Shown here: positions 1,257 to 63,951 of the stretch, piece by piece | Layout of the letters: every line of letters starts with the position of its first letter | How positions within the stretch are numbered: position 1 is the first letter of the stretch | From: Micractinium sp. NFX-FRZ | Taxonomy: Eukaryota > Chlorophyta > Trebouxiophyceae > Chlorellales > Chlorellaceae | Direction: 5' to 3' | Length of the DNA: 64,000 nt | Assembly: GCA_029339195.1 (NCBI GenBank) | Contig: JAPTJF010000359.1 | Span: 1-64,000, forward strand | Notes under the pieces: generated by a model | Seen by the model: only the letters and a program-made list of their open reading frames with translations | The model's database searches: none | What the model was told of the DNA's origin: nothing | Position numbers and translations under genes: made by a program

Positions 1257-4105
1257 CTCAAACGGCGGCTGCCTACGCCGGAAGCAGGACCGCAACAGCT
1301 GCAGGCACATGGCAGCCGGACCCGCCCATCAGGTCCCACCCACCAGTGCTCCTCCAACCCACCTTGGTGCCAGCCGCAGCCTCCAGCCGCGCGTCCTTGC
1401 CCGCCAGCTCGGCACCGACGCGCTGCAGCTGGGCGGTGGCTGCGGCAAGGCGGCCCGCCAGGTCGCCGCGCTCCTGCTGCGCGCCCGCCAGCTGGACCTC
1501 CAGCGCAGCCTTTGAGCGGGGGCGGGAGGGGCAGGGAGAGTTCTACAGTGTGGAAGGGTGGAACCTGCAGGGCATGGCGGGCAGCCTATACTCGAGAGCC
1601 CCTGGCCCCCACCTTGGCGGCATCCGCAGCGGCGAGCTCGTCCAGCCGGGCCTGCAGCGCCCCGCTCTCCTCAGCCGCCGCCGCAGCGCCCTCCTCCCCA
1701 CGCTTGCGCTCCGCTGCCAGCGCGGCCACCTGTTTGTCATGGCGGGGGGCGGCGGGGCGGCAGGGGGCTTGTATTTGGGGGCGAGGGGGCTGGCAGAGGG
1801 AGGGGGGCCCGCCAGCACTCTGCAGTTTGTATTTGGCTGGGCATGGCGGGGGGCGGAGAGGGCGGCGGGGGGCTTGTATTTGGAGGGGGCTGAGCCGCGC
1901 CCCCGAGTTTGCATCCTGCAAGGGGAGAGCAGCGGGCAGCCTGCACCTATGCTCCGGCGCCCACCTGGGCCTGGCTGGTTGCGGTGACCTCGTCCAACCG
2001 GGCCTGCAACGCCGCAGCCTGCGTTGCCTTCAGGCAGGAAGAGCACGGCACAGCAGAGGAGCTCGTATTGGCGGCTCAAGTGCTTGAATGCAACAGCCAG
2101 AGTTTGTACTGCGGCGGCGACGGGCCCCGGGCGGCTCAAGAGCTGGCATGCAGCAGATGGGGCTGGCAGAGGGGCGGCCGGGAGAGCTTGTATTGGGCAT
2201 GGCAGGGGCGGAGAGGGCGGGCGGGGCAGCTTGCATTCGGTTGAGCAGTGGCAGGCCGCCCCCCGAGTTTGTATGCAGGCTCCTGGCGCCCACCTTGGCG
2301 GCATCCGCAGCGGTGAGCTCGTCCAGCCTGGCCTGCAGCGCCCCGCTCTCATCGGCCGCTGCCGCAGCACCCTCCTCCCCACGCTTGCGCTCCGCTGCCA
2401 GCTCCCGCGCCTGCTCCTCCTGCTGCGCCTGCAGCCGCCCGTTGCCAATGAAGGCGGTGTCCCTGGACGTCTGCAAAGGGCCATGCAAGAGCGGCGCGGA
2501 TGTTCTGCAACCTCCAACATGGGCATAAGTTTGTGTTCACCCCTAAGCTGGCCTGGCCAACTGTTCTTTTCTTTTTAACCACCCCAAGCACAAAACTACT
2601 GGCGGCACCTGCCCACCTCAGCCTCCATGCGGCGGTCTTTCTCTGCCAGCATGCGTGTCTTCTCAACGTCTAGCTCTCGAATGGCCTGCATAAGACAACA
2701 GACAGTGGCATTTGGTTGGATGAATACATTGTCTAGCGCCAGTTCTCGGGCTTGACCGTGCGCTTCTTGATGCACAGAAAAGGGGAGGGCTGTGTGTGCA
2801 GGCGCACGGGCAGGCCCCGATGCCGTGATCAGCCACTCATTGCCAGCACCAAGCAGCAACATGACACCCAGCTCAATTCCATCACGCTCTCTACCCACCT
2901 CTGCCGCAGCAGTCTCTGCCCCCTGCAACTTCCTGCGCTCCGCCGCCTCCGCCGCCTGCAGGGCCTCGCAGCGGTTGACTTGCGTGGGGTGCCTGCACCA
3001 GGTGGGAGGCCATGGCCAAGGGGAGGGTCAAGCAAGGTGTAACAGCAAGGAAGGAAGCAGGCTGCCAGCCGCGTGGCTGGGCAGCCCAACATCGGCTGGC
3101 ATGCAATGTTGTGTGACCTCTGGAGCAGCCAGCAGGCAGCACGATATGGGTGCAGGGGCGGGTGGAGAGCTTTGGGCATGCACCGGCACCAGCGTGTGTC
3201 CGCCTATAGGAAGCGGGCGAGGCATTGGAATCAGCTGAACAAACGGGGCTGGATGTGTTCCAGCATTCCAAACACGGTCAACCTGCATGTGACACCATTC
3301 CAACAACCGAAATCTGCACCCGCCGACTAGCGTGCCTCACAAAGCCTCGCGCCACGCCCCCCCCGCCAGCCTACCCGCAACGTCTCAGAATGTTCCCATC
3401 CTGCTCACCTGCTGCCGACCCCACCGCGCCCGCCTCCACTTGACTGGCAGCCTCTCGCGCCACCTGCGGCTGCTGTGCTGCCTGCCGTGCAGCCGCCTGC
3501 TGGGGCTGGCATGCCTGGTGTGCAGCCTCCTGCAGCTGCTGTAACTCCCTCTGCATCCCAGTCCTCCAGACGTGCAGGACGAGTTGCAATTGAGCAAGGC
3601 GGGACAGAGCCGTGTTGTTTCTGTTGTCGCTGCCTGCGCACCCACCTGGCTCAGTGAATGCATCCAAGCCAATCCTGGGCTGCCCGCGTGCCGCCTGGCA
3701 CCCGTGGCGTTTTCAAGCTGCAGGCGAGCCCCCCCCTGGACCCCAGCTGCCCCTGTTGACACGTAATACCCACCTCTACGGCAGCCAGCTTAACTTGCAG
3801 CTCCTCAATCTCCATATCACGCTCGCTGATCTCCCCAGCGTGCACATGCGCCATGTTGCGGGCGTCGGCAGTCATCTCGGCAAGCGAATGCCTGACATGC
3901 TCGAAGACGGCCTGCACACAGTGGCGGGAGCATACAACCGGCCAGCAGGTTGCGCAATGAGAACAACTGGGTGTTGCGTCTACAGCGCCAGCACCCATTT
4001 GTCTGCCACCCCTCTTCGCAGCCGCAAATGTGCGCTTCTCAGCACCCACGGGCACACTTCAAGTCTTCCCCGCGCGCGTACCGGGTCTACTGCTATTTGC
4101 GCCAT
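1257..4105 (-). CDS. Coiled-coil protein with tandemly duplicated exons (3' end unresolved)
   Basis: Unidentified protein predicted to form long alpha-helical coiled coil. Exons on the minus strand: 4105-4058, 3911-3774, 3550-3409, 2978-2899, 2685-2617, 2470-2294, 2027-1965, 1729-1613, 1509-1363, 1298-1257. Splice sites are GT-AG and phases agree throughout, giving at least 341 residues. Heptad-like runs rich in Ala, Glu, Gln and Arg fill nearly all exons, for example IEELQVKLAAVE and ELDVEKTRMLAEKDRRMEAE. Three exons (2470-2294, 2027-1965, 1729-1613) carry repeats of the motif ALQARLDEL. The start at 4105 (MAQIAVDPV) is the first Met in frame with exon 2. The acceptor of exon 4 (CAAG at 2979-2982) is chosen only to keep phase. 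No enzyme motif or membrane segment is seen. The stop codon and last exons below 1257 were not located, so the model is partial. Confidence 0.65.
1613..2470 (-). repeat. Triplicated coiled-coil exon block
   Basis: Exons 2470-2294 and 1729-1613 encode nearly the same peptide (LAAERKRGEEGAAAAA, then a DES or EES variant, then GALQARLDEL). Exon 2027-1965 encodes a shorter, more diverged version (AAALQARLDEVTATSQAQ). The introns between them also share motifs such as CTTGTATT. This is intragenic tandem duplication of exon plus intron, which lengthens the coiled coil. Confidence 0.8.
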
Positions 4106-4600
4106 GATGGCGGCGCCGGCAGGGCGGTAGGCGGTGGGCGGTAGGGCGGTAGGGCGGTGGGGCCCACAGGTGGGCGCCGACACTAGCAGAAGGCGGCGGT
4201 GGGCCAGCAGGTCGAGCAGTTCAAATACCGCGATAAGAGCGGCGCCCGGAAGTCTGCGGCGCGAGCAAATGGCCGGCAAATTTTCGGACCGCCGAAATGC
4301 TCTGGCACGCGGTTGGTGTTCTCCACCTGATCACGGTGGTGCCTTACCCAATCGGGCTGCGCTGTAAAGGGCTGCAGGCTCAGCGCATGTGCACTCTGCC
4401 CTCCGGCTGGCTCGCACCCGCCATCTGTTGCGCTCAAGAGATGGTGACTGAATCGCCAAGTGAGGACAGAAGCGCGCTGGGAAGTCCGAGGCGTCCCGCT
4501 AGGTGCGGTGCAGCATACTAAATTGGTAGTTCGCCCTGCTGCTGACGTGGCAAGGGGGCGGCACACCCCCTACCTAACTCTCTTTTCACTCCCTACTTTA
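4106..4600. promoter_or_regulatory. Upstream region of the coiled-coil gene
   Basis: No convincing exon. The first 90 bp hold a short GGGCGGTAGG-type repeat around 4128-4160 immediately upstream of the start codon at 4105. This is the likely promoter region by position only; no TATA box or recognised element was identified. Confidence 0.35.
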
Positions 4601-5580
4601 GCTGACTGCTTGTCGGCTTACACCCTCACGGTGCTCTACATTCTTATGCACGCATGAATGAACAGACTGGGTGGAGATCAGCAGAACAGGCAATGTCCTT
4701 GGCTGACCCAAACTTTGCCGAGTTTCAAGGAGGAGGCACTCAGCATTGATTCCATCAACAAGCGGCTGCAGTACCACCTGCAGCTGCAATAAATCAAACA
4801 GGAGTTCCCTGTTGCGGTGGCAAACAGGAGTTCCCTGTTGCGGTGGCAGCGTGGCTGGCGGTGGCTCTGGTGGTGGCTCTGGTGGCCGTCGTTGCTCTGG
4901 TGGCGGCTCTGGCGCTGGTTGGCTGCCACGTAGCAGCCCCTGAAAGTACTGCTCCAGTACATCTGAGGGGAAGCTAGGGGAAGCTGGCCACCAGCCGGGC
5001 TGAGCGGTCAATGGCACGGAAGAAGGTTGTGGGGTCTGTGTCCAGCAGGTCCTCACAGGCCTTGCCCCGCATGGCTGATGCTGCCCGGTGTGCTGAGCGT
5101 GACGCCTTCTTCAGCAGCGCAGGATCTTGCCATGCAACATAGGCCAAACATGTGCAGGTCACCATGTTTAAGATGCCCTGAGTAGCCACACTTCTGCAGT
5201 CACATTATTCGGGTCGGGTGACAGTTTGATCATCAAAGAGCGCACCTGCATGGTGGACTTGATGCCGCCCGAGGTCGCGACAAACTGTGCTCGCTTGATT
5301 CTGCCATGCAACATAGGCCAAACATGTGCAGGTCACCATGTTTAAGATGCCCTGAGTAGCCACACTTCTACAGTCACATTATTCGGGTCGGGTGACAGTT
5401 TGATCATCAAAGAGCGCACCTGCATGGTGGACTTGATGCCGCCCGCGGTCTCCATGAACATTGGTGCAAGTGAATTGGGACCGACTTGCCTACGCTGGCG
5501 GCGAATGCAGTTGTGGCCGTGGCAAAGCCTGCCTGCTGCAGGACAGCGTCCTGCACAGGCAACAAGTGACATATGTGGAA
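4600..5580 (-). pseudogene. Unidentified coding remnant with frameshift
   Basis: Minus-strand frames look protein-like but do not join into one open frame. One frame (5189-4974) reads DPALLKKASRSAHRAA and then DLLDTDPTTFFRAIDRSARL. It is stopped by TAG inside a 10-bp tandem repeat (about 4967-4986). Another frame continues directly with SDVLEQYFQGLLRG, a Pro/Glu-rich linker and a Leu-rich tail. This suggests that the 10-bp repeat shifted the frame. A further frame at 5572-5342 contains KSTMQVRSLMIKLSPDPNN and overlaps the duplicated segment. I do not recognise the family. It could be a decayed host gene or a piece of a mobile element. Confidence 0.35.
5128..5450. repeat. 149-bp direct duplication
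   Basis: Positions 5128-5276 and 5302-5450 are almost identical, with offset 174 bp. Two differences are visible: G/A at 5194 versus 5368, and A/C near 5272 versus 5446. About 25 bp separate the copies. The near identity implies a recent event, in contrast to the decayed duplications elsewhere in the window. No inverted termini or target-site duplications were seen. Confidence 0.9.
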
Positions 5581-5662
5581 GATGGTGCCAAAAGTGTCAA
5601 GTTGAGGGTTAGATTCAAAACCAACAAGCGTGGTTACACCTTCGTGCAGCTAGAAATGCCAA
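5464..5662 (+). CDS. Possible exon of unknown protein
   Basis: An open plus-strand stretch reads like real coding sequence: VNWDRLAYAGGECSCGRG, then KSVKLRVRFKTNKRGYTFVQ. It ends at a plausible GT donor after CCAAG at about 5662. No partner exon or start codon could be assigned, and the region overlaps the minus-strand remnant. It may be part of the same decayed locus. Confidence 0.2.
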
Positions 5663-6289: not shown

Positions 6290-9200
6290 CCCAGTGGCGC
6301 CGCCTGGGCAGGCAGGTGGTTGACCTGATTTCAGAGTACCACGACCGCCTGCTGGGGCGGGGGCGCCGTCCGCCGCTGCCCGTAGGTGAGCGCACCGGGG
6401 GGCTGGCAGGAGCGCTGGGAGGAGCCTTTTACCTCGGTCGGCCAAGCCGCTCTCCCTTGCACTCTCACATGCCACGGTTTGCTGCATGTGCTCTGCACCA
6501 CCATCCCAGCGCACAGCGCACAAGCCTGACTGAACGCCCTGCCTCTTGCTCCTCACTGCTCTTGTTTCAGTCAGCCGCGCAGAGCCTGGCTTCCTGCGCG
6601 CCGCCCTGCCCCCGGCGGCCCCCGAGCGCCCCGACTCCTTTGCGGCGGTGCTGCGGGACATAAAGTGAGGGCCTGCACCTTGCACCGGCGCCTGTCTGTG
6701 GTTGCCAGCGCTGACCTGTGACACGCCTCGCCCTGCACAGCTGCTAGCAGCGTCGGGCCAGCCACCCTTGCACACAATGCCCTGCCGCTGCCTGCCCGGC
6801 TCCCGCCCCATCTGCAGACCAGACGCACAGCTGCCTGCAAAAGGCGTGCATGGTGGCTGGCATCCAGCACCTGCGCCTGATCTGCACCCGCCCGGAGGAT
6901 GAGTACGCGCTGCAGCCGGCGGCACTGGAGGCGACGGTACAGGCTGACCTGGCGGCGGGCCTGCTGCCCTGCTACGTGTGCGCCACCATTGGGACCACCT
7001 CGTCATGTGCGGTGGACCCTGTGTCTGAGCTGGCAAAAGTGACGCAGCGCTACGGCATCTGGTGAGGGCCAGCTGGGGGGCAGTGCAGGGGCAGTGCGGG
7101 GTGCACCCTGGGTGCGCGCAGGGTGCAGCTGCATTGCAGGCGCACCCCCGGGGTGTGGCGGCAGGAGGAACGCTGGCATGCTCTGGCTGAACCCACGTAT
7201 GAACTGCCGGTGCACCGCCCCGGTAGATCCCGTCAAATTCCCATGCTCGCAGCAGCGACACGCACTGCTTTCCAGCGTCCCTCCACCCCTCCCCTGGCCT
7301 TCAGGCTGAACGTGGATGCGGCGTGGGCGGGCGTGTTTGCGCTGCTGCCGGAGCAGAGGCAGCGGTACTTTGGTGGGCTGGAGGGAGCGGACAGCTACGA
7401 CACAAACCCGCACAAGGGGCTGCTCACTGGGTGGGAGTGGTGAGCTGTGGGGTGGGGGTAGGCAGGGTGGGTGGTCAAGGTGGGTAGGCAGGGTGGGTGG
7501 GCAGGGTGGGTGGGCAGGACGGGGCAGGACACCGTGGGAGCGGGCGGCAAGTGTGGAGGGATCACCCTCCTTGCCCCTTAGCAGGCTAACAAAGGACCTA
7601 GGAGTCCTTCCGGTTGGACACCCAACCTTTTCCGGTCCTACTACAGCAAGAGACCCTGGGAGGGCGCATTGACCTGGGGGCACTGCCAGCGCAGGTGGGG
7701 CAGACCTGGGTGGCGTGCCCTAGCACTGCGCTGCCTGCCTGGTGCCCCGCCCCCTCCCTGCACACTGACACCCGCACGCCGGCAGGGTTCGTCAGCACTT
7801 TGCCCACAGCCCCGCCCGCCTCCCTCTGCCGTGCGCCCCCCGGGGACATGAGAAATGAGAAGGGCGCACTCCTCTGCGCCCGCTCACACCCACGCGTACC
7901 TGCATACGTATGCGCCCACCCACCTCTCCACACAGTATGCACTACCGTCAAGGAGTTTGAGCCCCCTGCCACCCGTGAGCTAACCACCCTTGCACCTCGT
8001 CATGGCTTCCTTGCAGCTCCGCCATGTACGTCAAAGATGCACGCTGGGTGAGGCAGGCGCTCACCGTCACCCCCGCTACCTCCAGAACCCCGCTGCAACT
8101 GGCGCCAGCTCCGCCCGGGGCCCCACCCTCAGCCCGCACCTTGCCACCCCGCCCCCCGACGGTAGCGGCAGTCCTGCTCAGGACCCCGCCCTCAGCCCGC
8201 GCCTGGCCGCCCTGCCCCCTGGCGGTACCGGTTGCGGTGGCAGCGCCAAGTTCTCCGCCGCTGGGACCAGTGCTGGCGCCCCCGGAGCGGGGCCAGGCCA
8301 AGGAGAGGAGCATGGCAAAGGAGAGGGCGAGGGCGGGGGCTGCCAGGCGCAGGCCGGGGCAGCGCCTGGCGGGGGGCGCACCGAGCCTCCAGAGTACAAG
8401 GTGTGCACGTGCCTGCCACGTGGGTTTTCCTGTTTTCGGTTGGTCCTGTCTGGGTAGTGTTGCTTTTCTTCGGTGAAGTGGGGCCAGCCATGGCAGGCGC
8501 TCGTCTGGCGTGCCCAGTGCAAACCGCACATTGTGCGACTCGTGCCGCGTTGGTTCAATTCGTCCGTGCATCTATAAGTTGGCTGTGGGATACCTTTGTT
8601 CCTGCCGTGGTGCAACGCGGCGCCTGCCATGCCCCCATCAACCAATCACCCCGCCCCAGCGCAGACGCCCGGCGGTCCCACCCGGTTGATTGCCCGGCAC
8701 TAACGCATCCCCCTGCCTGCCCGCCTGCCCGCCTGCTTACCCATACTGCCTCAGGACCTGGACGTCCCGCTGGGGCACGGCCGCTTCAGGGGCCTGCGCC
8801 TCTGAATGGTGCTGCGCCTTTACGGCGCACAGCGCCTGCGTGACCTCATGCGCCACCGCCTGTGCCTGCAGGACTTCTTGGCAGACCTGGTGAGGCGGCA
8901 TTCTGTCACTGCGCCAGGGTGGCGTGTAGGAGATCCGTGCAGGTGGGCACAGGCGCAGGTGCATCGCTGCGCCCGCACCAGCAAGGCTACAGTGCATACT
9001 TGGGACAGGCCGCGCTGCCCTATGTGCCCCCCCACTTGCTGCGTACCACACACTTCTTCGGTTGGGTGGCAGGACAGGAGAATTGTGGGTAGCAAGGGCA
9101 GCCTGCAGGCTCATCATGAGCACAGCTTGCAGGTGCAGGGTTATTCCGCCTATGGGTGAGGCCTGCCTGCTGCCTGGAGGCATGGCGGTTTTGGCGAGGG

Positions 9201-14454: not shown

Positions 14455-17400
14455 ATGGCCCAGGCAGCAAGCGCACAGCGGCATGCAGGCCCCGTGGGCA
14501 GGCCCAGTGCACCACGGTCCCGCCGTGCCTGTGTGGTGCCGCGGGCCGTGACGCCCACGCTGCAGCCCGGGCTGGAGAACCGCACGGCGCCGTCGTGGCT
14601 GGCGGAGCCGCTGCGCCACGTGGTGAAGAGCCAGCAGTTCAACCAGGAGGCGCTGGAGCACGTGTTCAAGGTGTCCCGCGAGATGGAGACGGTGCGGCCA
14701 GGCACGGACGAGAGCCGGCAGCTGCAGGGTGCCATCATGTCCACCCTCTTCTACGAGCCCTCCACCCGCACCCGCCTCTCGTTTGAATCTGCCATGGCCC
14801 GACTGGGCGGCACCATCCTCACCACAGAAAGCGCAGCCGAGTTCTCCTCAGCAGCCAAGGGGGAGACGCTGGAAGGTGCGGGGTGCAGCGGCAGGGAATG
14901 GGGGGAGGGGAGGTTGGGGCGGGCAGCCATGGGAGGGGCGGGTGAGGCAGGAGGTGGGCGGGCGCTGCCGAGTGGCAAGTGCGGCCCTGCATGGGCCCTG
15001 CATGGCTGGGCCCCATGCAGCGTGTGGCAGGTTTCGGGCTCGCTCCTGCTGTGCAGAGCCTTTGAGGTGTTAGGGTTTTGGGTGTTAGCATGGGCACAAA
15101 CCCCAGCCCCAGAGCGGCCTCCCTCCCTCCAAACTGCAGCTTGCTGCCCAGCGGTGTCGCCCCGCCTGGTGCGCTCGGCACTGCGCGCCTCACTCCCTGC
15201 CCCTGCCTGCCTCATCTCCCCGTCATCTTCCTGTCCCTGCCCGCAGACACAATCCGCACTGTGGAGGCGTATGCCGATGTGGTGGTGCTGCGCCACTTCC
15301 AGGTGCCTTGCTGGACTGCTCCTCCCTTGTGTAGCTCTCCCGCCTGCATGCATGCATGCATGCATGCATGCATGCCCGTCTGCCTGCCCTCGTGCCTGTG
15401 CTGCCCTGCCGGGGAGCAGGGAACAGGAGCAGCAGGCCGTTGGGTCAGCCTGTGCCGCATGCCCCTGAAACATCTGCTGGAAGCACTGCTGGGGCGCAGG
15501 GTGCAGTTGTCAGGTGGGGGCTGGCCGGGGCCTGCAAGTGAGAAGGGCGGCCCTGGCTCCTCTACAACTCTATCCACGGCAGGCGGGCCAGCAGCCACCT
15601 CCCAGCCTACCCGCCGCTTGCTCATCCGCCTGCCCTCCTTGACCACCTCACCCCACCCCACCCCGCCCCTCGCCCCTGCAGGCGGGATCAGCTGAGAAGG
15701 CGGCAGCCGCTGCCTCCATCCCAATCATCAACGCAGGGGACGGCCCCGGCCAGCACCCCACGCAGGTGCCTGTGTGGTTAATAGAGGGCAGCGTTGTGGT
15801 ACGGGCCCTGCAGGGCGTCCCTGCAGCAGCCAGCCAACTGTCTAGCACAAGAGATGAGGGAACTGCAGTACCTCTAGTCATGGTTCTGCCCTTCTCACTG
15901 AGTGCAAGATGATGGCCTGTCTTCCTCACTGAGCAACATCCGGCTCCTCCCCATGTAGGCCCTGCTGGGCGAGACGCGCCACTCCACCACAAGCACAGGC
16001 GGTCCATCCCTCCAACCCCTCCTTCCTTCTTGCTCCAACCCCTCCGTGCTCCTCCCCTGCAGGCCCTGCTGGACGTGTACACCATCCAGCGGGAGATTGG
16101 GCGGCTGGAGAACTTCAAGATCGGGCTGATCGGCGACTTGGCCAACGGCCGCACCGTGCGCTCCCTCGCCTACGTCCTCTCCATGTACAGCAACGTCAAG
16201 ATGTACTTTGTGGCGCCAGACGTGGTGAGTGGGGGAGCCAGCGTCTGTGTTCATTTCATCTCTCCGTGGTGAGTGGGCGAGCCAGCGTCTCGTGCCTTGT
16301 GCTGTTACAATTGCCAAGGGAGTGAGCGAGTGCCACGTGTTCGGTTTCAGAGGCAGGCGGGTGCCCATGTTGGTGCTAAATATGTGGGAGAACAACGACA
16401 TGAGGTGGCCAGGTGGCAGAGTGAGCTGTCATCCCTGGTTGCATCATGCTGGCATCCCTGTGCTCCTCCCCTTCGCCTCGCATGCTCCCCCCTCTTTCCC
16501 CCGCTCCCCGCAGTGCCGCTGTGGGGGGACGACATCATCACTCCGCCCCAGCCGCTCACCCTGCCCCGCAAAATTCCAACGCGGTGCCCTGTTTCCCTGT
16601 GCCCACACGATGCCCCCCTGCAGTGCCGAATGAAGGACGACATCAAGAGCTACCTGAGCAGCGTGGGCGTGGACTGGGAGGAGGTGGATGACCTGGCGGC
16701 GGTGAGCATGTGGTGGGGGGAGGCGGAGGGAGTGGGGTGACGGTGGGGAGGGGTAGGGAGCTGGGGGCGGTCACAATCCAGACAGGCAGTTGACACAGCC
16801 AGGGGTGTGGGAAGCAGGCGGTGGTGGCGGTGGTGGTGGCGGCGGCAGCGGTGGATGCACGATCTGGCCCAAGGAAAGTGTGGGTCCGCTGTGGCAGTGG
16901 CGCGTGCGCAGGGCGCGTGCATCACCATGTGGCACTGCCGCCACCCCAGGTGCCAACATGCCAGTGCCCCTCGTGCCCATTCATCTGCCCGCCAGCCTGC
17001 CTGCCCCCGAGGATGCCAGGCTACCCGCCCCACCCCCACACGTTGGGCATTTTTTTTCCTTCAAAATGTCCTCATGCCAGGTGGCGTCTGACGTGGATGT
17101 GCTGTACCAGACGCGCATCCAGAAGGAGCGCTTCCAGGACAGGCAAGCAGAGCAGCAGCAGCAGAAGCAGCAGTCAGCAGAAGCAGTCAGCAGCGTCGGT
17201 TGGCAATGCTGGGCGGGTCACTGTGGCGAGTGTGCTAGCACATTGATGCCCTCCCCACCCCTGCCTCGCCCCACCCCCACTCGACCGCTCTTGAGATTGC
17301 AGGCCAACCGGCCACGAGAAGTACCCCTCCCCTCCCCTGCCGCCCCTCCCTCCTGCTCACTCGCTGCCGCCCCCACCTTGTCTTTCTGTCCACTGTGCCC

Positions 17401-21502: not shown

Positions 21503-26611
<5,109 letters not shown>

Positions 26612-43158: not shown

Positions 43159-45109
43159 ATGACCGGCCCTCAGCTGCTGCCCTGTGCGGCCCTCTGCACC
43201 CTGCTGCTGCTGGCCGGCGCTGCAGCGGGCCGCCCCCTGGCCCCTGCGACCGAACAGAACCTGGCACCGACCGCAGAGGTGAACAAGGGCGCAGCAGCGA
43301 GCTGCAATGACGCCGCAGCTGCAAGTTGCGCGGGCGGGCCGCTGCCCGCCGCCGGCCCGGTTGCGCTGGCCTGCTTCCCTCCATTACAGCCTCCCTCTCA
43401 CCCAACCACTGCAAGTCCTCCCCTCTGCGCAGCCCAACGTGACGGCCGCGAGTGGCTACCAGCCGTGGCTGGGCCGTGCGGGCGGGCAGGTAGCCGAAGC
43501 TGTTGCGGCTGCCACCTCCGGCGAGCGCCCCGCCTGGCTGCCGGGCGGCCTGTTCTCTGGAGAGGGCACCGCATACAGCGAGGCCGTGGCGGGCACCGGC
43601 GTCGGCTTTGCCTGCTCTGACCGCTACCTCAACGATTACTTCTCCACCCACTTTGCCGCCATCAACAAGCCCATGGTGGGTGCTGAGGGGCGGGGCGGGG
43701 CTGAGAACGGCGGGGCACTGATGTTTGCTGGGAGGGCGCTGCTCTGGCCAAGCCTCGCCACCCATCCATTAACTTCTGCCCCTGCAAAAGACACGCCATC
43801 CAGCTCTCACCCAGCCCTGCCCCCTCCGCTCCCGCTCTCCCGCCTGCAGTGGGACGAGGGCCGCGCCTGCGGTCGCTGCGTCACCGCCTGGTGCGTGGAC
43901 GACCGCTGCCCGGTGAAGAACAAGCGGGTGCAGGTCAAGATTGTGGATCTCTGCCCAGAGTGCAAGGAGGGTGAGTGCCTGCGGGGTGGGGGCAGGAGAT
44001 GGGGACCAGGGGAGTGTGGGTGCCGTGTGGGTCGGCAGCGGAGAGGATCAGCAGTAGCACCGCTGAGCTGCTTAGTAGGGGCCAGCACTGCGAGGCAGCC
44101 GGTACCACACAGTTGTGCTTGGCAGCCGCGTCCGTCCTGTTGCAGGGTCCTCGCACCCTGCATCCCGTCTTCACAGACTCGAACCAACCAACAACCACTT
44201 CGCCCCGCCCCCCACCCGCCCCCCACCCGCCTCCCTGCCCCAGGCGACGTCGACTTCTCCATCCCCGTGTTCCGTGACATCACCGGCATGTGGCCCCACC
44301 GCCTCAGCATCCAGTGGGAGTGGTCCGACTGCTCGCCCCAGATTGAGGGCGACATCCGCCTCACACCCAAGGTGGGCGCACCCCGCGGGTGTGGCAGGGG
44401 GTGCCGTTGGGGCGCTAAGGGTGTGGGAGCTGTGGTGCGGGTGGGCAAGAAGAGGGAGGGTGATGGCGGACTTGGGTAGAGGAGACCAGACTGTTTTGAG
44501 CCCCCGGAAGGAAGCAGTGCGTGCTTGCCACACGCTCCCCCCCACTACTTGCACCCTGCTTGCTGCTCACCACGCCCTTCCCCCCGCACCTCCCGTCTGC
44601 CCTCCCCTGACGCAGGACGGCATCAACGCCCAGTGGCAGGCCTTCTACCTCTCCAACTCCAAGTACCCCCTGGCCAAGGTGAAGATCAACGGCAAGGAGC
44701 TGGTGCGGGAGCAGTTCAACGTGAGTGCTTGGGGAGGGCAGGGCGGAGAGTGCCTTGCTGGCGTGTTATGGTGGCTAACAGCGGCGACTGGACAGCCCGG
44801 GCATGCAGGATCAGGCAAGCAGCAGAGAAGCAGCCTGCCCCAGGCTGGGTGCCTCCCCGACTCCCTGGCCTCTTTGACCCCTTCCACTTCACTACTCTCA
44901 GCCTGTTGCCAGCCTCCCGGCTCCCGCCAATCAGGCCCTCACCTGACCGCCGCGCGCCCATCCCCACCCGTCCCTTCCTGCAGTTTTGGATCCACGCCGC
45001 CCCTCTCTCCACCCCTGCCATCTTTGAGCTGGAAGCTGAAAATGGAGCAAAGGTGACCACGACGGTGCAGGACCCGCTGCACCCGCAGCTGCTGTCCAAC
45101 TTTGAGTGA
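43159..45109 (+). CDS. Expansin-like secreted protein 2
   Basis: Paralogue of the expansin at 28230-30228, with the same 280-residue length and the same exon sizes (120, 243, 121, 128, 105 and 126 nt). Exons: 43159-43278, 43433-43675, 43850-43970, 44244-44371, 44616-44720, 44984-45109. It has a signal peptide (MTGPQLLPCAALCTLLLLAG), then the barrel domain with CGRCVTAWC and KIVDLCPECKEG, then the C-terminal binding domain. The coding sequence is very similar to copy 1. Most replacements are near the signal peptide junction and the last exon (ELEAENGAKVTTTVQD against ELESVNGMTVNITVQD). Introns have diverged strongly. A secreted wall-modifying role is inferred from the family. Confidence 0.9.
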
Positions 45110-46209: not shown

Positions 46210-49200
46210 TCACTCCAGCATCTCGGCCGCCACTTGCTCCACGGTGGCGGGGGTCGCGCCTTCCGCAGCTTCCAGGGTCTGCCCCTGGGTCATGTTCTTG
46301 ATGATGTAGTTGGTCACCGTGCTGTTGTCGATGTACACTGCAGACGTGCAGAGGGTGGGGGGAGTGATGGGCACACATGTGTGGTGGTCGCAGTTGTGTG
46401 GCTGGTGGCAGTGTTGTTGTCGCGGGCGGGGCAAGGGCGAGCGCGGTGGGGGAGACGCAAAGGCAGGGAGGGCGACCGGCGCGACCCCAGGCACCACCAC
46501 CTGCCCAGCAAGCGGCCGCGATGCCCCCGTCAGTCTGGTCAGTCTGCAGCCAGCACCTTCCCTGCCCTGCACAACCCTCCAGCCGCCCAACCTCCCAACC
46601 GCCGACCACCCGACCGCCCGCACACCACCATGCACTGCAACATAGGACGGGCTGCCTGCCCCAACCCTAACACGCCCAAACCCCACACTCACCCAGGCCC
46701 CCGTCGTCTGAGTGTATGATCGTCCTGGTTGGCTCCACCTGCGTCACCTTGCCCTGCAGACGAAGAAGAAGAAGAAGAAGAAGCAGATGACAGCCCGAGG
46801 GCGTAGGATTGAGAAAGCCAACATGAAATCAAAGCCAGTGGCACCAGTCAGCTACCTTTTCCCTGCAGACCAGCACCCAGGACCGGGAAAGAGGATTGGG
46901 AGCGTAGTGCGACCGCCCAGCAGATGGGCAGCGGCAGCGGGAGCGACAGCTTGACAGCACAGGGCTAGTTGACAGACAGGGACCGGCTGGGCGGCTGGCT
47001 GCGTTGGCTGGCTGGCTGGCTGGCTGGCTGCCGCCGCTCGCCCCCGTCCCCGGCGGGCGCCTCCTCCTGGGGATGCGGGACAGCACATAAAGAGATGCAG
47101 TTTCATTCTGGAGTTGAGACTTCATAAGCCTGTGTAAGAACATGCCTACCTGGACCACAGTGATGCCTCCGGACAGCAGGTGCACCTCGTCCCCCACCAC
47201 AAAGGGGCGGGCAGTGAACTGCAGGCAGGGAGGGAGGGAGGTGGGCGGGAGGACAGGAGGGCAGGAGGGTGGTGCCGCCTCTTGGTGCAAGGAGGAGTGC
47301 CAAAGAGGGAGGTGGACTGTGCTGAGGGGGCGGCCAGCACCGCGCAGTAGCCGCCCCCTAGCTAATAAGACGTACGCACCCTTCCCGTGCCAGCAAACCT
47401 GCTGAAAAGGGCATTGGCTGACTTAAGACGCAGTCCGACTGACGGATACGAACGGCCTGACTGTTGACACAGCCGTCAACTGTTGTTTCAGTGAAAGCGG
47501 ACGAAGCTTACCAGGGCGATGGCTGCCACGACATTTGACAGCAGCTTCTGCGCTGCCAGGCCCGCCACAATCCCCAGGCCGCCCACTGAGGCCATGACAG
47601 GCGCCAGGTTGATGCCTGCAGCAGCACAGTGAGAGCAACACGCCCTGAACAAGGCAGCACCCCTGTGTTGCTACATTCACAGCAGACAGCACCCAGCTGT
47701 GGGTATGCTAACTGCGGACACCAGGCCGATGCCTGCAGCAGCACCGTGAGCACAGCCTTCCAGGCTTGGCCAACGTGGGTGGCAGGCGCTGCCCCACTGG
47801 CACGGCTGTGCAGGGCCCCCCGGAGGGGGCCTCCCTCCCCTCGTTAAGCCCTTTGCCCACCCTCTTCCCCTGCCACGTCAGCACCCCTCGCGCCCTGCCA
47901 GGGAACCGCCTGCCCTGCAGCCCCACCCACCGTAGGCAGCCAGTGCAGTGGCAATTGCCGCCAGTACAATAAGCAGGTTCACCACGCCTCCCAGGGGGCG
48001 CAGGAGGGTGAGCGCCGCGCTGTTCTCGACTTTTCTGCAGGTGGGTTTTAAAGCGGGAGGCGTGGCAGGCGGCTTCGTGATGCCCACCCAAGAAAAGGGT
48101 GACAGGGTGCAGGGAAGCAAGCAGGTCAGCAAGCTAGCATGCACGCGTGGCGCCGAGGCGGGGTGGGAGGCGAGCGGACACTGCGCCTTCAGAGGGGCCA
48201 CAGCATCATGATGCACCACCCCACGCCCCATCACCTCCCCGCTGGCAGTCCTGCCATAGGGAGCGCCCTCGTGCTCCTTAATCACCCTGTGCAGCCACTA
48301 GTGAGACGGCGCCCCACCCGAGATGCGGCGCCCCACCCACACAGGATCAGCAAGGGTAGGCACAGCACAGCACAGCGCGGCATGGCACAGCGTGGCATGT
48401 GCAGCGTGGCGCGCAAAGCAAGGCGCACCAGGCGCCCCCCCCGCTCCGGAGCTCAGAAGCCTGCCAGCACAGCGCAGCATGGCGCAGCACAGCGGCCCGC
48501 CCCGCTCAGCCCCCCTCCGGAGCTCACGAGTCGGACAGTATGCATGTGGCCACCCAGTGCAGCACCCGGCTCTTGAAGTCGATCAGCGCCCAGGCCACGG
48601 CAACAATGATCAGCAGCTCGCTGGTGTCCTGCAATATATAATTATATGATATATAATAATATCATTGAGCGGTTGTGTGCAAACCGCTGGGCAGTCGTTC
48701 TCACCACCCGAGTGCGTTGCTTGCTCATGGCGGCACTTCAACATGATGGTTAGTGATCATGCGGGCCGCCACAGTGCCAACCAACGCAAGCACCTCGCTC
48801 CTTTGCCACGCTCGGCAGTCAGGCTTCCAGCACTGCTGCCGTTGAAGACCGCAGCCCAGGAATGTCCAGCCGAGAGGAAGGCCTCTAGCGTGCAGTGCAG
48901 GTGCCTCATCCCCTCTGCCCACTGCCCCCAACACAACCTGCCTACACCCTGCCCTGCCCGCCGCCCCCTGTGCACCTGCTTACACCCTCCCCTGCCCGCC
49001 GCCCCTACACAACCTGCCCACACACTCCCCTGCACGCTGGCCCCCGCGCACCTGCCTGCACCCTCCCCCGCCCGCCGCCCCCTGCACACCTGCACCCTCC
49101 CCTGCCCACTGCCTCCTGCGCACCTGCACCAGCTGAGTGAACCACTGGAGCGCTGTGAGGGCCATGTCGCTCTTGTCTCCTGCACACACACGCACACGCA

Positions 49201-51083: not shown

Positions 51084-53627
51084 TCAGTTGCGCACGTTCT
51101 TGACGTTGCGGATGACCCGCTTGTTCCACCCGACCCAGGTGGGCACCTGCAAGACAGGGGGGCAGGGTGGAGGATGCAGTTGGTCAGCTGCTGTGCATCG
51201 GTACTGCCATTACTGCTGCCACACCCCTGTGCGTAGGGCGAGCAGGATGTTCCTGGCCCCCACCTCGCCGCCCTGTGTCCGCACGCGCAGGCAGGCAAGG
51301 CAACAGAGCAGTGCAGCCACGGCCCCAGGCAGGGAGCGGACCAAAGCAGAGAACAGCGGGGCAGGGCAGAGCAGAGCAGGGCAGGGCGGCACTCACGTCA
51401 TCCACCGTCTGCATCACTCCCTTGCCAACCTTCACGTTGATCACCCAGCTCCTGTGCACCAGCTGCAGAGGGGAAGGGATGCGGGTGCGGGCAGGGTGGT
51501 TCAGTAGAGGGTTGGAGGCGGGAGGTCAGGGGGCACGTCGCGCACCCAGCAGGGTGGCACTCACATCATCCTGCCCCACCCGCTGCGCGCGCCCTGGCTG
51601 CTGCCCAGGACCAACCCTGCCGCCTGCACCGGAGCCCACAAGCCGGCCACTAGCTCTGTGTGCAGCCTCGGGTCCAGCGTGACCCGTTTCCACCGGTGGC
51701 ACACACAGCGCGTCATCTTGTGTGCCATCGGTGGGGACACAATGCCGCGCTCTGTGTGCCGCGTGCAGGAAACCCAGGTGCATCACGCCCTGCTGCAGCT
51801 GGTCCCTCCATGCCATGAAGCTTCCTTCGCTAACAACTCCTCTGCCTCCACCCACCCACATCCCTCCCTCACACCCCACCCCTCACAAGCCGCACTTCTT
51901 GTGTGTGTGTCAATCCACAAATGTGTCCCTACCTCGGAGTCGTCGTCGGTGCCGTCGACGTCAAAGCGGTCGGGGCCGGGGCGGCGCCCGCCGTCGTCCA
52001 TCTCCAGCCCGATGCGGTTGCCGGGCTGCATGGTGGGCAGCCAAATCTTCTTGGGCCACTGGGGCCACATGGGGGTGTACACGCGGCGGCCGGGGACGAT
52101 CAGGGACTTGATCAGCTGCAGAGGGTGGCAAGGGAGGGCAGCGGGAGGGAGGGGAGGGGTGGGCAGGGGGGAGAGGATCGTCGGTGTGTGGGGCCGAGCG
52201 GGGTTGGCACGCAAGGAGGCGGGCAGGAAGGCGAGCCACCTGGCGGAGACAGGAGCACGCAGCAATCGCCAGCCTTCCCTGCACACCTATACGCAACCGA
52301 CGCCCAGCCTGCCCTGCACACCTGTACGCAACCAACGCCCAGCCCGGCCTCCACCCCTCCCCACCCCTCTCACCTCCCGCAGCAGCGCCTTGTTGGCAGG
52401 CAGCAGCAGCTCGTGAACCGTGATGCCCATCTTTGTGCTCAGATGCTCGCGCCAGGCGCGGTCTGCAGGGGGACATGGGGGAGCGGGAGGCAGGGCAAAG
52501 GCGGATGCCAGGTGAGGAAGAAGGGGTTGCAGAAGAGGGAGCTTACAAGCTTCGGAAAGCTAGCAGAGGCGTCACGCATGCAGATGGGCAGGCAGGCAGG
52601 CAGGCAGGCAAGGCAGGCTGGCAGAAGCAGAGGGGTGTTTCAGCAGGCAAGTTGGCAGGCTGGGTAGGCAGGGCAGGCAGGCAGGCAGGCAGGCAGTCCA
52701 GCGAGGTCCGCCCAGGCCAGCAGTGCAGCGCACCGTCAGGGGGGAAGAAAGTGGCCACCACATTGCCATTGGAGAGGTACTGGCGCATGCCGGACGCCTG
52801 CGGGGGTGGGCAAGCAGCAGCAGCACTGTTGATGGGATGCACACCAAGCAGGCGCCTCTGCTGCCTGGGGCAACAGCAGGAGGGGCAGCAGGTATGCTCT
52901 GTTGGAGTGGTGGTGCTGGCCTGCATGCACGCATGTTCTGCCGATACCCGGAACCAAGGCGGCGGGCAGTCGGCTCAGTGTGCAGCAGGGCGTGTGGAGG
53001 CTGCGGGCAGGCAGGCAGGAGGGAGGTTGAAAAGCGGCCACAGGCTTGTTGCATGCTGTGCTCACATCCACCACGGCGCGCGTGATGCTCATGCCGGGCT
53101 GCTTCTTGAGGGCGGTGTAGAAGTTGGGGAACATGACCTGGCCATTGTTGGCGGGCGCGGCGGCGGCGGCGACGCCGGCGCCGGCCGCGCGGTTGGGGTG
53201 GATGACAAGCGACTCAGCATGCACGCCTGCAGGGCAGATTGAGGTGCATAAAGTGGTGGTTGGTACAGCACGCGGGGGGGTCGGTGGGGTTGGCTCTCAA
53301 GCGACTGGTCATGCACGCCTGCAGGTTGATTTGCAGCGGGCGAGGGGGCGGAAGGCAGGAGGCGGGGGGCACATAGCAGGGACACCAGTGGCGGGGCGGG
53401 GCAGCCTGAAGGGCCGGTGTGTGACAGCCCGGTGCGCAAATCCTGGGAGGTGGTGGTCGGGTGGAGCGTGCAAGGCCGGCCTGCGGACGGCAAACAGACT
53501 GCCCAAGCAGGGGCGTCGGCGGCGCGCCGGGCAGCGGCCAGATGCCGCCGCCATGCTCCCATCACTCACCCGCAGCTAGCAGCACCGCTGCCAGCGCAAT
53601 GCCAGCCACGACAGTGGAGCGCTTCAT
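51084..53627 (-). CDS. Secreted fasciclin (FAS1)-like domain protein
   Basis: Probably an extracellular or luminal adhesion-type protein. Exons on the minus strand: 53627-53570, 53226-53066, 52797-52734, 52462-52374, 52115-51933, 51462-51397, 51146-51084 (227 residues). The signal peptide is MKRSTVVAGIALAAVLLAAG. The central part follows the FAS1 pattern: FPNFYTALKKQPGMSITRAV, then VVATFFPPDDRAW (equivalent to the FTVFAPTD motif), then ITVHELLLPANKALLRELIK and SLIVPGRRVYT (equivalent to the YHVVPG region). The remaining C-terminal half is Trp-rich and basic (MWPQWPKKIWLPT, VPTWVGWNKRVIRNVKN) and not typical of FAS1, with a Gly/Asp-rich acidic stretch between. The FAS1 call rests on pattern, not on alignment. 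An orphan copy of the last exon lies at 54544. Confidence 0.6.
51552..51572 (-). repeat. Decayed copy of the FAS1 exon 6 donor
   Basis: GGGTGGCACTCACATCATCC repeats GGGCGGCACTCACGTCATCC at 51384-51403, which spans the real donor. However, it lies upstream of exon 6 on the gene strand, inside intron 5 rather than next to its parent donor. Confidence 0.65.
52585..52700. repeat. (GGCA)n microsatellite in FAS1 intron 3
   Basis: Two runs of GGCA tetranucleotides (about 52585-52612 and 52672-52697) are separated by interrupted units. Confidence 0.85.
53297..53325 (-). repeat. Near-intact copy of the FAS1 exon 2 start
   Basis: CAAGCGACTGGTCATGCACG plus CCTGCAGG repeats 53205-53233 with only a few changes. 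On the gene strand it reads GVHDQSLES against GVHAESLVI and keeps an intact CAG acceptor, about 92 bp upstream of the real one. Confidence 0.8.
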
Positions 53628-57554: not shown

Positions 57555-60500
57555 TCAGGAGGCGGCGGGCAGGTTGTAGTTGTTGTGCGGGTTGTTCTCG
57601 TCCTGCTTGGCACCCTTGTTGATCAGGCGGGCCGCGCTCTTGCCGCCCATGGCTGCCTGCAAATGCGTTTCCACAAGGGAGCACCGAATGGAAAGGTCAG
57701 AGGTGGAGGCTGGATCGGCAGTGGGAACGGGACAGCACAGCACTGGCTGGCAACGCAGCAGAAGGTTGGCATCCGATTCGATGCAACACAAGGCCACCCC
57801 GCATGCCCGCCGCCCTGGCACCCCACCTACAGCGCTGGGCCCCGCCTGCACCTCTGCACCGCCCCCTGCCACACGCCCGCAAGCCCGCCCCACCTGCAGC
57901 GCTGTGGCCCCGCCTGCACCTCTGCACCGCCCCATACCCCGGCCCCGCCCCCACCCACAACCCCGTCCCACCTGCAGCGCAGTGGCGCCCCCCTCGCTGA
58001 GCACCTCTGCCGAGCGCGCGGCCTCGCCGGGCGCCGCCTCCGCGGCGGTGCGGCACAGGCTGCCGATGAAGGCGTCGTTGGCGGCGGGGGTGCCCTCGCG
58101 CTGCACGCGGTGCATGCGGGACCAGGGGCCCATGGAGGGGTCCACCAGGAAGCGCCAGATGACCCAGCACCACGAGGTGTGGGAGTAGAGGGTGTCGTAG
58201 TACTCGGGGGCAATCTTGCGCAGCTGCGGAGGGGGAGGGGCAGGGGGGAGAAGGAATGTCAGTGCGGGGGCACACAGAGCAGCAAGGTGGAGAGGTAATG
58301 TAAGTGTGGGAAGGGTTGGGTCAGAGGTGGGGGACAGCCATGGGAGCAGAGGGCAGCTGGCCAAGCTCCACTTCCCCTTCTCCCCCCAGCTTGTGCATCC
58401 CGGGCTTCTCTGCTGTTGCCCTCCGACATGTTATGCCCTTGCTACAAGCAACTCTCTCCCCCCTGCGCTGCCTGTGTGCTGCCCCACCTTGTGCAGCCGG
58501 GTCTGGGGGATCTGCGGGAAGTCGTGGTGCTCGTTGTGGTAGCCCACGTTGTAGGAGAGCAGGTTGAGGGGGCCGTAGTAGCTGTACGTCTCCTGGCCAC
58601 GGTTGAACATGTAGTGCTCTGCAGGGGAGGGGCAGGGGAGGGGCAGGGGAGTGGGAGGGCCACAGTGCTGTTATCGGAGCAGGTTCAGAGGGGTGCGAGA
58701 GGTACGCTGCGTCATCAGCTTACACAGTACAGTGCTGCTCAATCCTGCAGGGAAGCGCCAGCACCGCGGCGGCGGTGCCCACATGCCTGCACCCCTGCCG
58801 GCCCAGCGTGCCGGACGCGCAGCGCTGCCAGCCCGCGCCCGGCACTGCCCAGCGGCAGCCACACCCGGGATTGATACCCACACACACACGCTCAGCACCC
58901 GCGCCGCACCCGCGATGAGGTGGCCCGCCATGGGGTGGGGGCCTCCGCCCAGCAGGGAGCCGGCCAGCAGGTACACAAAGGACTTGAAGCCCCAGAAGTA
59001 GAGGATGGCCAGGTCAACGCCAATCACAGACACCCAGTTGACGGCGTCCGCCATGGCTGCGGGGGGGTGGCAGGGGAGGGGAGGCGGGGCGAGGGTGAGG
59101 GGAGGCGGAGCGAGGGTCATGGGGAGGGCAGGGTGCAGGGGACACGGCACAGCGGCAGCAGCAGCTGGCACAGGGCAGTAGCGAGCGGCCAGACCACTTC
59201 TTAGGCCAGCATCAGGCGTCCGCAGCTCCAACTCCCTCCGCCCCACCCACCACCTCAGGGCGTACACAAAGCAGAGTGTGCACAGCGCGCATGGCCCAGC
59301 CGCCGCGCATCGCCCACCACCCAACCCCCACTCACTTGCGGCCTTGGGGCGCACGAGCAGCGGGCGCACGGCGTAGACGCCCATGTAGCTGATGGTGAAG
59401 AGCACCTTGGTGATGAAGCCGGTGATCCAGGTGGACTCCAGCACCGTGGGCAGGTCCACGTCGCCGCCGTCAATGCCCTGGGGGACAGGCGGGGCAGGAG
59501 GGGGGGGAGGAACACGTGGGGTGGGACGGGGTGGGTGAAGGCAGGGTTGGCTGCAGCACGGTGGGCTGGTCCACGCTGCTGCCACTGAACATGCCCCGCA
59601 TTGGAACCATGGCATCATCACGAGGAGGGTTTGGGGGAGGCCAGGTTGGGGCAGGTTGAGGCACGGAAGCCTGAGAAGGTGTGCTGTGCTGTGGGGCTAC
59701 AGCCGGTCCTGCCCGCACGCTAGGATGCAGCCAGAACGCGCACCCCCAAGTGCAGGGGGGACAAGGAACCCCTGTTCCAGGCTCAGGAGGCCCGGCCAGC
59801 CCAGCCAGCCCTCACCAGGAAGATGTGGTGGTCGTGGTGGTACTCCCGGAACTTGACTGCCATGGGCACCACCAGGGGCAGGTTGCCAAACAGAGCCAGC
59901 AGCTTGTTGTGGGAGGGCTTGCGGAAGGCGAGGAAGTGGGAGATCTCGTGCTGCGCCGTGAGCAGGTTCTGGTTCAGCGTGCCCGACACGACGTAGGAGA
60001 CGAGCCACAGCTTCCACCAGTCCCAGTCCCGCACGCAGTAGGCCATCAGGAACTGCAGCAGCACCACAAACACGACCTGCACCCAACAAAAGGAAGAGGT
60101 GGGATCTGGGGGTCAGCGAGAGATGGCACGCGGATGAGCCAGCGGGGTGCGCGTGGCAGCACGACGGCGGTTGGCAGCGGTTGGAGAGGGCAGCGCGGTC
60201 AGCAAGCACAGCAGCTGCCCGGCTGGGTCGGGTGAAGCCGCTGCTGCGGCTGAATACTGCTGAAAGAGGGAGGCAGCGCGGGTGGCGGCAGAGCGAGCTC
60301 CCGGCAAAGCGACAATGCTGGCGGCAGGCTGCAAGATACTGTCACCACCCAGGCACCCAAACAGACACCGCACAGCTCTGTAAGCTATGGTGCCCCTAAC
60401 AGCCCGTGGCACCCCAACAGCCCACAGCAGAGCCACGAGCAGCAGTAGCGACCGGCAAGGTCTGCCTGCAAGTGGCGCGACAGACGCACGGGTGCACCCA

Positions 60501-60722
60501 GGGCGGCGGCGGCGTTGAGGCGACGCCGCCAGGCCTTGCCAGCCAGCCCGGCGTCCCCCCTTCGCGCGCACGCACCTGGTAGGCGGTGGCGTGGTCGTAG
60601 CCATACAGCTTCCGGATCTGCTCGCCATACTTGGACAGCAGCTCGCGGCGGCGAATCGCATGGGGCTCGCCGCTCGCAACCCACAGGAAGCGGCTGGAGG
60701 GGGGAGGTGGTGGAGCCACCAT
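57555..60722 (-). CDS. Sphingolipid delta-4 desaturase (DES/DEGS type)
   Basis: Membrane di-iron enzyme of the ER predicted to introduce the delta-4 double bond (or a hydroxyl) into dihydroceramide. Exons on the minus strand: 60722-60576, 60076-59816, 59477-59336, 59056-58910, 58618-58488, 58223-57972, 57656-57555 (393 residues). The N-terminal [20 protein letters not shown] matches the DES lipid-desaturase N domain. Histidine boxes are QHEISH (HEISH at 92-96), HHDHH (129-133) and HNEHH (260-264, within [13 protein letters not shown]). Hydrophobic segments lie between them. A ~50-residue tail after RMHRVQREG extends beyond most family members and is polar. Introns 2 and 6 carry exon-edge copies. 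It is divergently arranged with the ketopantoate gene, 347 bp apart. Confidence 0.93.
57822..57990 (-). repeat. Triplicated exon 6 donor region of the sphingolipid desaturase
   Basis: CACCTGCAGCGC-type sequence occurs at about 57826 (CACCTACAGCGC), 57891 and 57969. The last one contains the true donor. Units of about 65-78 bp also share CCCCGCCTGCACCTCTGCAC. The two intronic copies therefore repeat the last codons of exon 6 (ATALQ) with donor-like GT. Confidence 0.85.
59550..59600 (-). repeat. Decayed copy of the sphingolipid desaturase exon 3 start
   Basis: On the minus strand it reads [13 protein letters not shown] against [13 protein letters not shown] in exon 3 (59438-59477). It lies about 112 bp upstream on the gene strand, inside intron 2. 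Confidence 0.75.
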
Positions 60723-61069
60723 GGCGTTGGCCCCCGAGGCGGCTGGAGAGCTGGCTATTTCAAATTCCACAAAATTGTAAGACCACGCGGCGGCGTTCCA
60801 GTGAAGGCACGCTGCGAGGATGCAGAGAGCCTGGGTGGAGCTGGCAAGCGCAAGGAAACAGGTCGCGGGGCGGGGGAGTGGTTCAGAGCGCTCGGCCGCG
60901 TGACAGCACCATCGCAAAGCACGCACTTCAGGCAGCCGTCCCGCAAGCTGCTGCCCTCGTTGGTTGCCCCATCGGACACAATACTTGCTGCCAAAACCAT
61001 TCCGCTAGGGTTGGCAGCCCCTGCCCAGCAGCCACCTATTCAGCGAGTTGTCTGCGCCGCTGTGGCGTC
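60723..61069. promoter_or_regulatory. Divergent promoter region, sphingolipid desaturase / ketopantoate gene
   Basis: 347 bp between opposed start codons, with no convincing exon. Both promoters should be here. No named element was identified. Confidence 0.5.

Positions 61070-63951: not shown

Follow-up and report, generated by a model that had tools for sequence, protein, structure and literature searches.

A tandem duplication within a gene that duplicates the splice signals and gives rise to a new intron was reportedly described by Hellsten et al. in 2011, and Zhuo et al. in 2007 are said to have traced alternatively spliced human introns to tandem arrays holding duplicated splice sites. 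Such human arrays would concern the origin of alternative introns, whereas the junction copies described here in the alga Micractinium sp. NFX-FRZ are decayed and known from sequence alone. In the potato RdRp gene, a tandem duplication that included an intron-exon border generated a new intron, according to the accessible part of the report (PMC4974935). The algal pattern resembles this case and that of Hellsten et al. in that it appears to involve tandem duplication within a gene with duplicated splice signals. It differs from them in that those were single cases yielding new introns, as far as the accessible part of PMC4974935 goes, whereas in the alga existing introns appear to be lengthened, at about 1 junction in 9. 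Repair-mediated proximal duplications in primates, whose median is 147 bp in the available portion of Pace et al. 2009 (PMC2671141), are like the alga's short, nearby and able to carry exon edges together with splice sites. According to the same portion, the primate set excluded pairs within 50 bp and had 4 partial exon/intron donors among 824 tabulated; in the alga, by contrast, junction pairs prevail among the recognisable ones, and a third copy tends to sit at about twice the spacing. Work on intron sliding and tandem duplication in Drosophila, in the part available to us (PMC2891723), likewise has regional tandem duplication of exonic sequence driving intron change, but there it leads to novel intron positions and here to a change in the length of existing introns. 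The original prediction knew of no general description of such a pattern. Single-border and repair-mediated cases are in print, as the accessible parts of PMC4974935 and PMC2671141 attest, but a genome-wide description of junction copies was not found in our literature search, which misses most subscription papers. The ingredients are known; what seems to be new is their density, together with the length accounting and the reading anchored on the exon.

The window, that is, the whole 64,000-nucleotide stretch under analysis, is positions 1 to 64,000 of a contig of a 66.07-Mb draft assembly in 838 contigs (GC content 62 to 67%). The window and 20 stretches of 10 kb from the same genome made up our sample of 264 kb in 21 sequences, 0.4% of the assembly. 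Gene models were obtained over all 264 kb with a Viterbi gene finder combining coding periodicity and splice profiles, trained without labels. It returned 61 genes, 520 exons and 460 introns (459 used downstream), with median lengths of 108 nt for exons and 244.5 nt for introns, and it learned from the data the donor consensus CAG|GTGAG and the acceptor consensus TGCAG|G. Mean intron length was about 272 nt (125,240/460); according to the accessible part of a preprint, introns average 206 nt in C. vulgaris and 179 nt in Auxenochlorella (PMC12633428). Pfam searches with six window models identified dihydrofolate reductase with thymidylate synthase (DHFR-TS), DPBB, PLP decarboxylase, a fatty-acid desaturase with a sphingolipid desaturase head, ketopantoate hydroxymethyltransferase and an acyl-ACP-type desaturase. 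The names ATCase, channel and FAS1 are putative and were carried over from the original prediction, and the ATCase and acyl-ACP desaturase models each appear to be fused with a neighbor. The DHFR-TS protein is 87% identical to that of Micractinium tetrahymenae, 84% to that of Chlorella variabilis and 93% to a further protein, identities that most likely place the source among green algae of the Chlorella clade.

The original prediction had called for exon edges to be aligned with their own introns alongside controls. At every junction, we aligned the adjoining 50 nt of exon with the inside of the intron next to it, with a cut-off score of at least 30; introns shorter than 100 nt or beside exons shorter than 50 nt were dropped, which left 348 of 459. 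Own introns matched at 20 of 348 donor-side edges (5.7%) and 22 of 348 acceptor-side edges (6.3%), all in direct orientation near the first copy, whereas 0.06% and 0.10% of 6926 length-matched pairs per side matched introns of other genes, a 60- to 100-fold excess. Reversed introns gave 0/348 matches per side, and so did reverse-complemented introns. The junction-copy pattern is genuine and far above chance. It is also not special to the window relative to the sampled stretches (3/84 donor and 7/84 acceptor edges inside, 17/264 and 15/264 outside). Since exon edges rarely match other genes' introns (0.06 to 0.10%), we did not find the similar sequence in many genes that characterizes introner elements. 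Genome searches with two copy-rich segments (L021:1-8700 and L005:3500-9900, in two of the sampled stretches) gave, among the matches listed elsewhere, only short ones of at most 138 bases.

A more sensitive test, with p values calibrated on introns of other genes, was applied to 398 and 396 edges on the two sides. At p≤0.05, 15.6% and 13.6% of outer exon edges matched their own intron. The controls stayed low: exon segments 40 to 80 nt from the edge gave 5.0% and 3.1%, segments at 80 to 120 nt 2.6% and 3.1%, the next intron 3.0% and 3.3%, reversed introns 3.8% and 2.8%, and reverse complements 3.3% and 3.3%. At p≤0.01 the figures were 6.8% and 8.6%, against 0 to 1.5% in controls. This excess over controls indicates that about 11% of tested junctions, or about 1 in 9, have a copy, and the background level of the deeper segments indicates that copying is limited to the outer 40 nt or so of the exon. 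An ungapped scan of 24-nt exon windows against the own intron (acceptor, then donor) found 36 + 38 matches for exon bases 1 to 24 (3.7 + 3.5 expected), 14 + 12 for bases 25 to 48 (1.7 + 3.3 expected) and 2 + 2 for bases 49 to 72 (2.9 + 1.7 expected).

Within the window, exon pieces of at least 20 nt beside introns of at least 100 nt provided 208 edges, 20 of which matched their own intron at p≤0.02, with other genes' introns as the reference; 4.2 would be expected. They belong to 7 gene models: DHFR-TS (7 edges), acyl-ACP desaturase (4), ATCase, PLP decarboxylase-2, channel and sphingolipid desaturase (2 each) and FAS1 (1). Self-comparison added pairs missed by this test, with copies at 8102, 15939, 16265, 25689, 41957 and 47721 and an array at 48915. 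The prediction of more than 20 copies agrees with these edges and additional pairs. It had placed them in at least nine genes, which was borne out for the 7 models but not for two others, panB, where no edge reached p≤0.02 against introns of other genes, and the coiled-coil gene, where the similarity was exon to exon, between 33-nt repeats at 1629, 1981 and 2310. In the coiled-coil gene (1613 to 2470), pieces of coding sequence recur in successive exons, with the 33-nt repeats about 330 to 350 apart; this is an exon duplication as opposed to an intron copy.

In DHFR-TS (plus strand), a donor copy at 22418 to 22516 shared both exon and intron parts with the working edge at 22326 to 22426 (spacing 92, 85% identity), and another at 26265 to 26314 corresponded to the edge at 26117 to 26171 (spacing 148). 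Acceptor copies were present at 22636 to 22677 (working edge 22706 to 22747, spacing 70, third copy at 22569 to 22617), 23254 to 23280 (edge 23433 to 23459, spacing 179), 24607 to 24651 (edge 24711 to 24755, spacing 104) and 25689 to 25728 (edge 25783 to 25822, spacing 94, 95% over 40 nt). A donor-side copy at 23653 to 23677 had its exon source at 23555 to 23579 (spacing 98), and an acceptor-side copy at 23792 to 23831 had its source at 23955 to 23994 (spacing 163, p 0.007).

Other copies on the plus strand were an ATCase acceptor copy at 15939 to 15971, with an exon part of only 13 nt (edge 16043 to 16075, spacing 104), and a head-to-tail copy over an acceptor of PLP decarboxylase-1 at 8102 to 8168 (edge 8165 to 8231, unit 63). 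PLP decarboxylase-2 carried an acceptor-side copy at 38542 to 38564 (exon source 38646 to 38668, spacing 104), a donor-side copy at 40379 to 40410 (source 40247 to 40278, spacing 132) and an acceptor copy at 41957 to 42009 that the gene finder took for an exon (edge 42080 to 42122, spacing 123). On the minus strand, the acyl-ACP desaturase gene had an acceptor copy at 33669 to 33702 (edge 33544 to 33577, spacing 125), acceptor-side copies at 34095 to 34130 (source 33968 to 34003, spacing 127) and 35128 to 35169 (source 35013 to 35052, spacing 117), and a donor-side copy at 36151 to 36193 (source 36279 to 36321, spacing 128), with another copy about 252 nt away. Also on that strand were acceptor copies in the channel gene at 47721 to 47750 (edge 47604 to 47633, spacing 117) and in FAS1 at 53282 to 53325 (edge 53190 to 53233, spacing 92) and, in the sphingolipid desaturase gene, an array over a donor at 57821 to 57925 (edge 57888 to 58010, unit 67) and an acceptor-side copy at 59545 to 59583 (source 59430 to 59468, spacing 115). 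Because the junction copies at 25698 to 25724 (27 nt) and 41969 to 41992 (24 nt) keep frame and sites, they were called exons by the gene finder; annotations of such genomes may hold spurious micro-exons of this kind.

The annotation-free self-comparison covered offsets of 30 to 400 and scores of at least 34, with low-complexity pairs (trinucleotide entropy below 3.8) removed; removing overlaps took the set from 158 to 107 pairs, and pairs were present in 16 of the 21 sequences. These comprised 22 acceptor-spanning and 18 donor-spanning pairs, 13 exon-intron pairs that ended before the junction, 4 with a copy that had been called an exon, 23 pairs within introns, 12 intergenic, 3 exon-exon, 3 of opposite polarity and 9 mixed. 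The predicted polarity, with donor copies downstream of the donor and acceptor copies upstream of the acceptor, held for 40 junction pairs as against 3 of opposite polarity. Setting aside 5 arrays (alignment/spacing above 1.25) and 1 pair without a mapped junction reduced the junction pairs from 57 to 51; at ratios up to 1.25 there were 14 intron-internal, 19 donor and 32 acceptor pairs. The spacing of junction pairs had a median of 106 nt (10 to 90% range 80 to 179), and their alignments were mostly much shorter than the offset, whereas 17 of the 23 pairs within introns were head to tail (alignment at least 0.85 of the offset). Median identity was 85% for donor pairs and 82% for acceptor pairs, and the exon part exceeded 50 nt in 4/19 donor and 1/32 acceptor pairs. 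It scored well above control, while the 40-nt intron flank passed the 99th percentile of the control in 9/50 pairs; with displacement allowed, intron flanks were similar at p≤0.05 in 14/49. Head-to-tail cases with both exon and intron parts included 22326/22418, 8102/8165 and 57821 in the window and others in the stretches L002, L006, L007, L013, L014 and L021. No full-length junction duplication near 100% identity was found in the 264-kb sample, the best being about 87%.

Introns with copies were longer. Their median was 376 nt (48 introns) against 238 nt for introns without, a shift of 115 nt (bootstrap 95% interval 86 to 142) for a mean spacing of 123 nt; subtracting the spacing left a shift of -9 nt (p 0.5), in a comparison made between introns of the sample. 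The 39 introns with short alignments only gave a shift of 114 nt (81 to 145). The shift dropped to 82 nt when only introns of at least 180 nt were considered, so part of it may be length bias, but this value still exceeds the roughly 45 nt of visible copy. We prefer these figures, in which intron copies called exons are merged, to the unmerged variant (353 versus 239 nt, 232 net); two pairs were dropped from the unmerged length and displaced-flank comparison. As a general pattern rather than a per-intron tally, copies lay inside introns (median 376 nt), about 106 nt from their own junction. Since copy-bearing introns are longer by about the spacing, introns appear to grow, among other ways, by small duplications across their splice borders.

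A search of 49 introns for second copies found them in 10 at p≤0.02 and in 14 at p≤0.05 (2.5 expected). Of these 14, 9 lay at 1.9 to 2.2 times the first spacing, and another 2 at roughly half that distance. At fixed places, scores of at least 28 were reached in 8/45 introns at 2.0 times the spacing and 7/41 at 2.25 times (these windows overlap), in 3/41 at 1.75, 2/38 at 1.5 and 3/12 at 0.5 times, and in 0/39, 0/31 and 0/25 at 2.5, 2.75 and 3 times. The excess near twice the spacing over neighboring places had a Fisher p of 0.02 and a weak rank test (p 0.10). In a subset of introns, third copies show a tendency to fall at about twice the spacing.

These observations are probably best read as old, short tandem duplications over splice junctions, of which one site works and the other decays. 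Units mostly of 80 to 180 nt (median 106) would have been duplicated over exon-intron junctions, and splicing would have kept the outermost site, namely the first donor or the last acceptor. With that site in use, the protein would be unchanged and the extra unit would become intron, lengthening it by one unit, and some junctions would have been duplicated twice. Because selection holds the exon half in the working copy and only the second copy drifts there, similarity in this half would remain recognizable. In the intron half, both copies would drift, frequently through indels as well, and that half would be the first to fade, leaving behind an isolated, worn exon edge and its splice site. 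The original proposal of a tandem duplication over the junction, leaving one working and one decaying site, is supported in this form, although in most pairs its tandem nature is deduced from lengths and periodicity, because the shared segment was shorter than 0.65 of the spacing in 42/51 pairs (it reached 0.65 in 9/51 and in the 5 longer arrays set aside).

Those short segments are also what would be expected if break repair had inserted 20 to 50 nt of nearby DNA at a distance, so that the copy never comprised more than the exon edge plus a few bases of intron. We consider such spaced templated insertions unlikely, although the intron flanks next to the best-kept exon copies are often unrelated: among 8 pairs whose exon part was well kept (40-nt score of at least 50), the intron flank scored below 20 in 6 (control mean about 10, SD about 5.5). 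Very similar exon copies beside an unrelated intron flank, at L005 7812, L004 3172, window 25689 and L010 3615, remain unexplained by duplication with one-sided decay. Templated insertion does not, however, account for introns being longer by the full spacing (or by 82 nt for introns of at least 180 nt) rather than by the 45 nt or so of visible copy, nor for third copies near twice the spacing, and a blind copier would include the exon segments at 40 to 80 and 80 to 120 nt, which were at background.

We simulated tandem duplications at uniformly distributed positions, letting copies decay neutrally while the exon stayed fixed, and applied the same detector as to the real data. A steady-state process with ages uniform from zero was rejected: it predicted mostly full-length alignments and too many intron-internal pairs (within-intron:donor:acceptor 340:265:232 and 230:200:119, observed 14:19:32), with intron-flank scores below 20 in 7 to 33% of well-kept exon pairs (observed 6/8). 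Old events gave 58:134:96 for ages of 0.15 to 0.7 substitutions per site and 5:119:79 for 0.25 to 0.5, and ages of 0.1 to 0.4 with many indels gave 70:140:99. In old-age runs the alignment fell below 0.65 of the spacing in 50 to 79% of pairs (observed 42/51), and intron-side profiles were near those observed. These runs overshot exon parts above 50 nt (29 to 47%, against 4/19 donor and 1/32 acceptor pairs) and gave a somewhat lower identity (78 to 80%, against 85% and 82%). The acceptor shortfall of long exon parts may reflect the need to keep the branch point and pyrimidine tract. Provided that the events are old, duplication with one-sided decay would account in these models for most of what is observed. 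Together with the length accounting, the old-age runs mean that the missing intron part is no longer proof against tandem duplication.

It is much less likely still that selection maintains the copies, be it as splice sites with a decoy or regulatory role or as alternative exons. When copies were found by exon bases 7 to 46 only, blind to the site (34 pairs, or 30 after dropping 4 short of the junction), the copied GT or AG was intact in just 12/30 (AG 7/15, GT 5/15). Intact copied sites were mostly strong, as selection would have them, with median scores of 8.25 against 7.79 for working acceptors (n=7) and 5.34 against 6.27 for working donors (n=5). Per base, however, retention of the splice dinucleotide (53 to 60%) was not higher than that of adjacent exon bases (66 to 69%). 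Mismatches in exon copies (268/1787 aligned exon bases, 15%) were nearly equal across codon positions 1, 2 and 3 (12.4, 15.1 and 17.5%), without the coding constraint that alternative, mutually exclusive exons would need. The residues encoded by the DHFR-TS copy at 25689 to 25728 were moreover absent from the four relatives' DHFR-TS proteins compared. From the near-even codon positions and the splice dinucleotides that are not specially kept, the copies look neutral. The high AG retention seen in most acceptor pairs with the site in the alignment was set aside as ascertainment, given the 7/15 of the site-blind test.

Chance resemblance of exons to GC-rich, low-complexity introns is hardly credible despite the many simple and tandem repeats of the window (113 TRF rows), given the rates in the 6926 length-matched pairs and in reversed and reverse-complemented introns, and the background level of the next introns of the same gene. 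Equally hard to credit are misjoined or duplicated reads, which a draft of 838 contigs might hold, since a 15% exon-copy mismatch is unlike read-level artefacts and 16 of the 21 sequences contain pairs. Conversely, if young identical units were collapsed during assembly, recent events could go unseen.

The original suggestion that introns lengthen mainly through junction duplication is unproven, and so is its suggestion that the copies supply decoy and alternative splice sites, as the copied sites decay like their neighbors. Directly visible copies (48 × 123 nt of 125,240 intron bases) make up about 4.7%, and about half is reached only by model-dependent extrapolation. The first old-age run detected 230 of 1088 junction events (1112 intron-internal events were made alongside), at which rate the 51 pairs would represent some 490 events in total and about 45% of intron bases, assuming uniform placement and the chosen age range. 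It is possible, though we hold it as doubtful, that about half of the intron DNA comes from tandem duplications of about 100 nt, of which those at junctions are legible through their coding-frozen half, so that exon edges would be a fossil record. Lengthening would then proceed in quanta at splice borders, and introns would be seeded with strong duplicate sites to lose. As introns decay, the mutations behind their length can seldom be seen; in the alga, one class of events can be counted junction by junction, dated against the conserved half and tied to a matching length gain. Comparing the outer 40 nt of an exon with its own intron, with deeper exon as the control, is a simple assay for any annotated genome, and duplicate splice sites of graded decay are material for studying the choice between near-identical sites.

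Neither the window paralogs nor the searches with L021:1-8700 and L005:3500-9900 dated any copy. The window also contains a diverged paralog of the copy-bearing PLP decarboxylase-2, with exon matches of 78 to 81%. Two DPBB/expansin-like paralogs at 28230 to 30228 (minus strand) and 43159 to 45109 (plus strand), without junction copies in either at the thresholds used, have equal exon lengths and all intron positions in common. Their exons are 81 to 99% alike (exon 3, 99%; exon 4, 97%), and their intron 1 is 93% alike, with introns 2 to 5 heavily gapped. This would suggest either exon-limited homogenization or very fast intron turnover.

Repeats of other kinds were also present in the window. 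Part of a DHFR-TS intron, 23323 to 23385, is a piece of a dispersed repeat with about 40 matches listed genome-wide (about 33 to 64 bp, 92 to 98% identity), and five of the listed matches lie less than 100 bp from a contig start. A minisatellite with 62-nt and 30-nt periods occupies 841 to 1214, in the last predicted intron of the coiled-coil gene, and a recent head-to-tail duplication with a unit of 174 bp (TRF, 98% matches) lies at 5118 to 5459.
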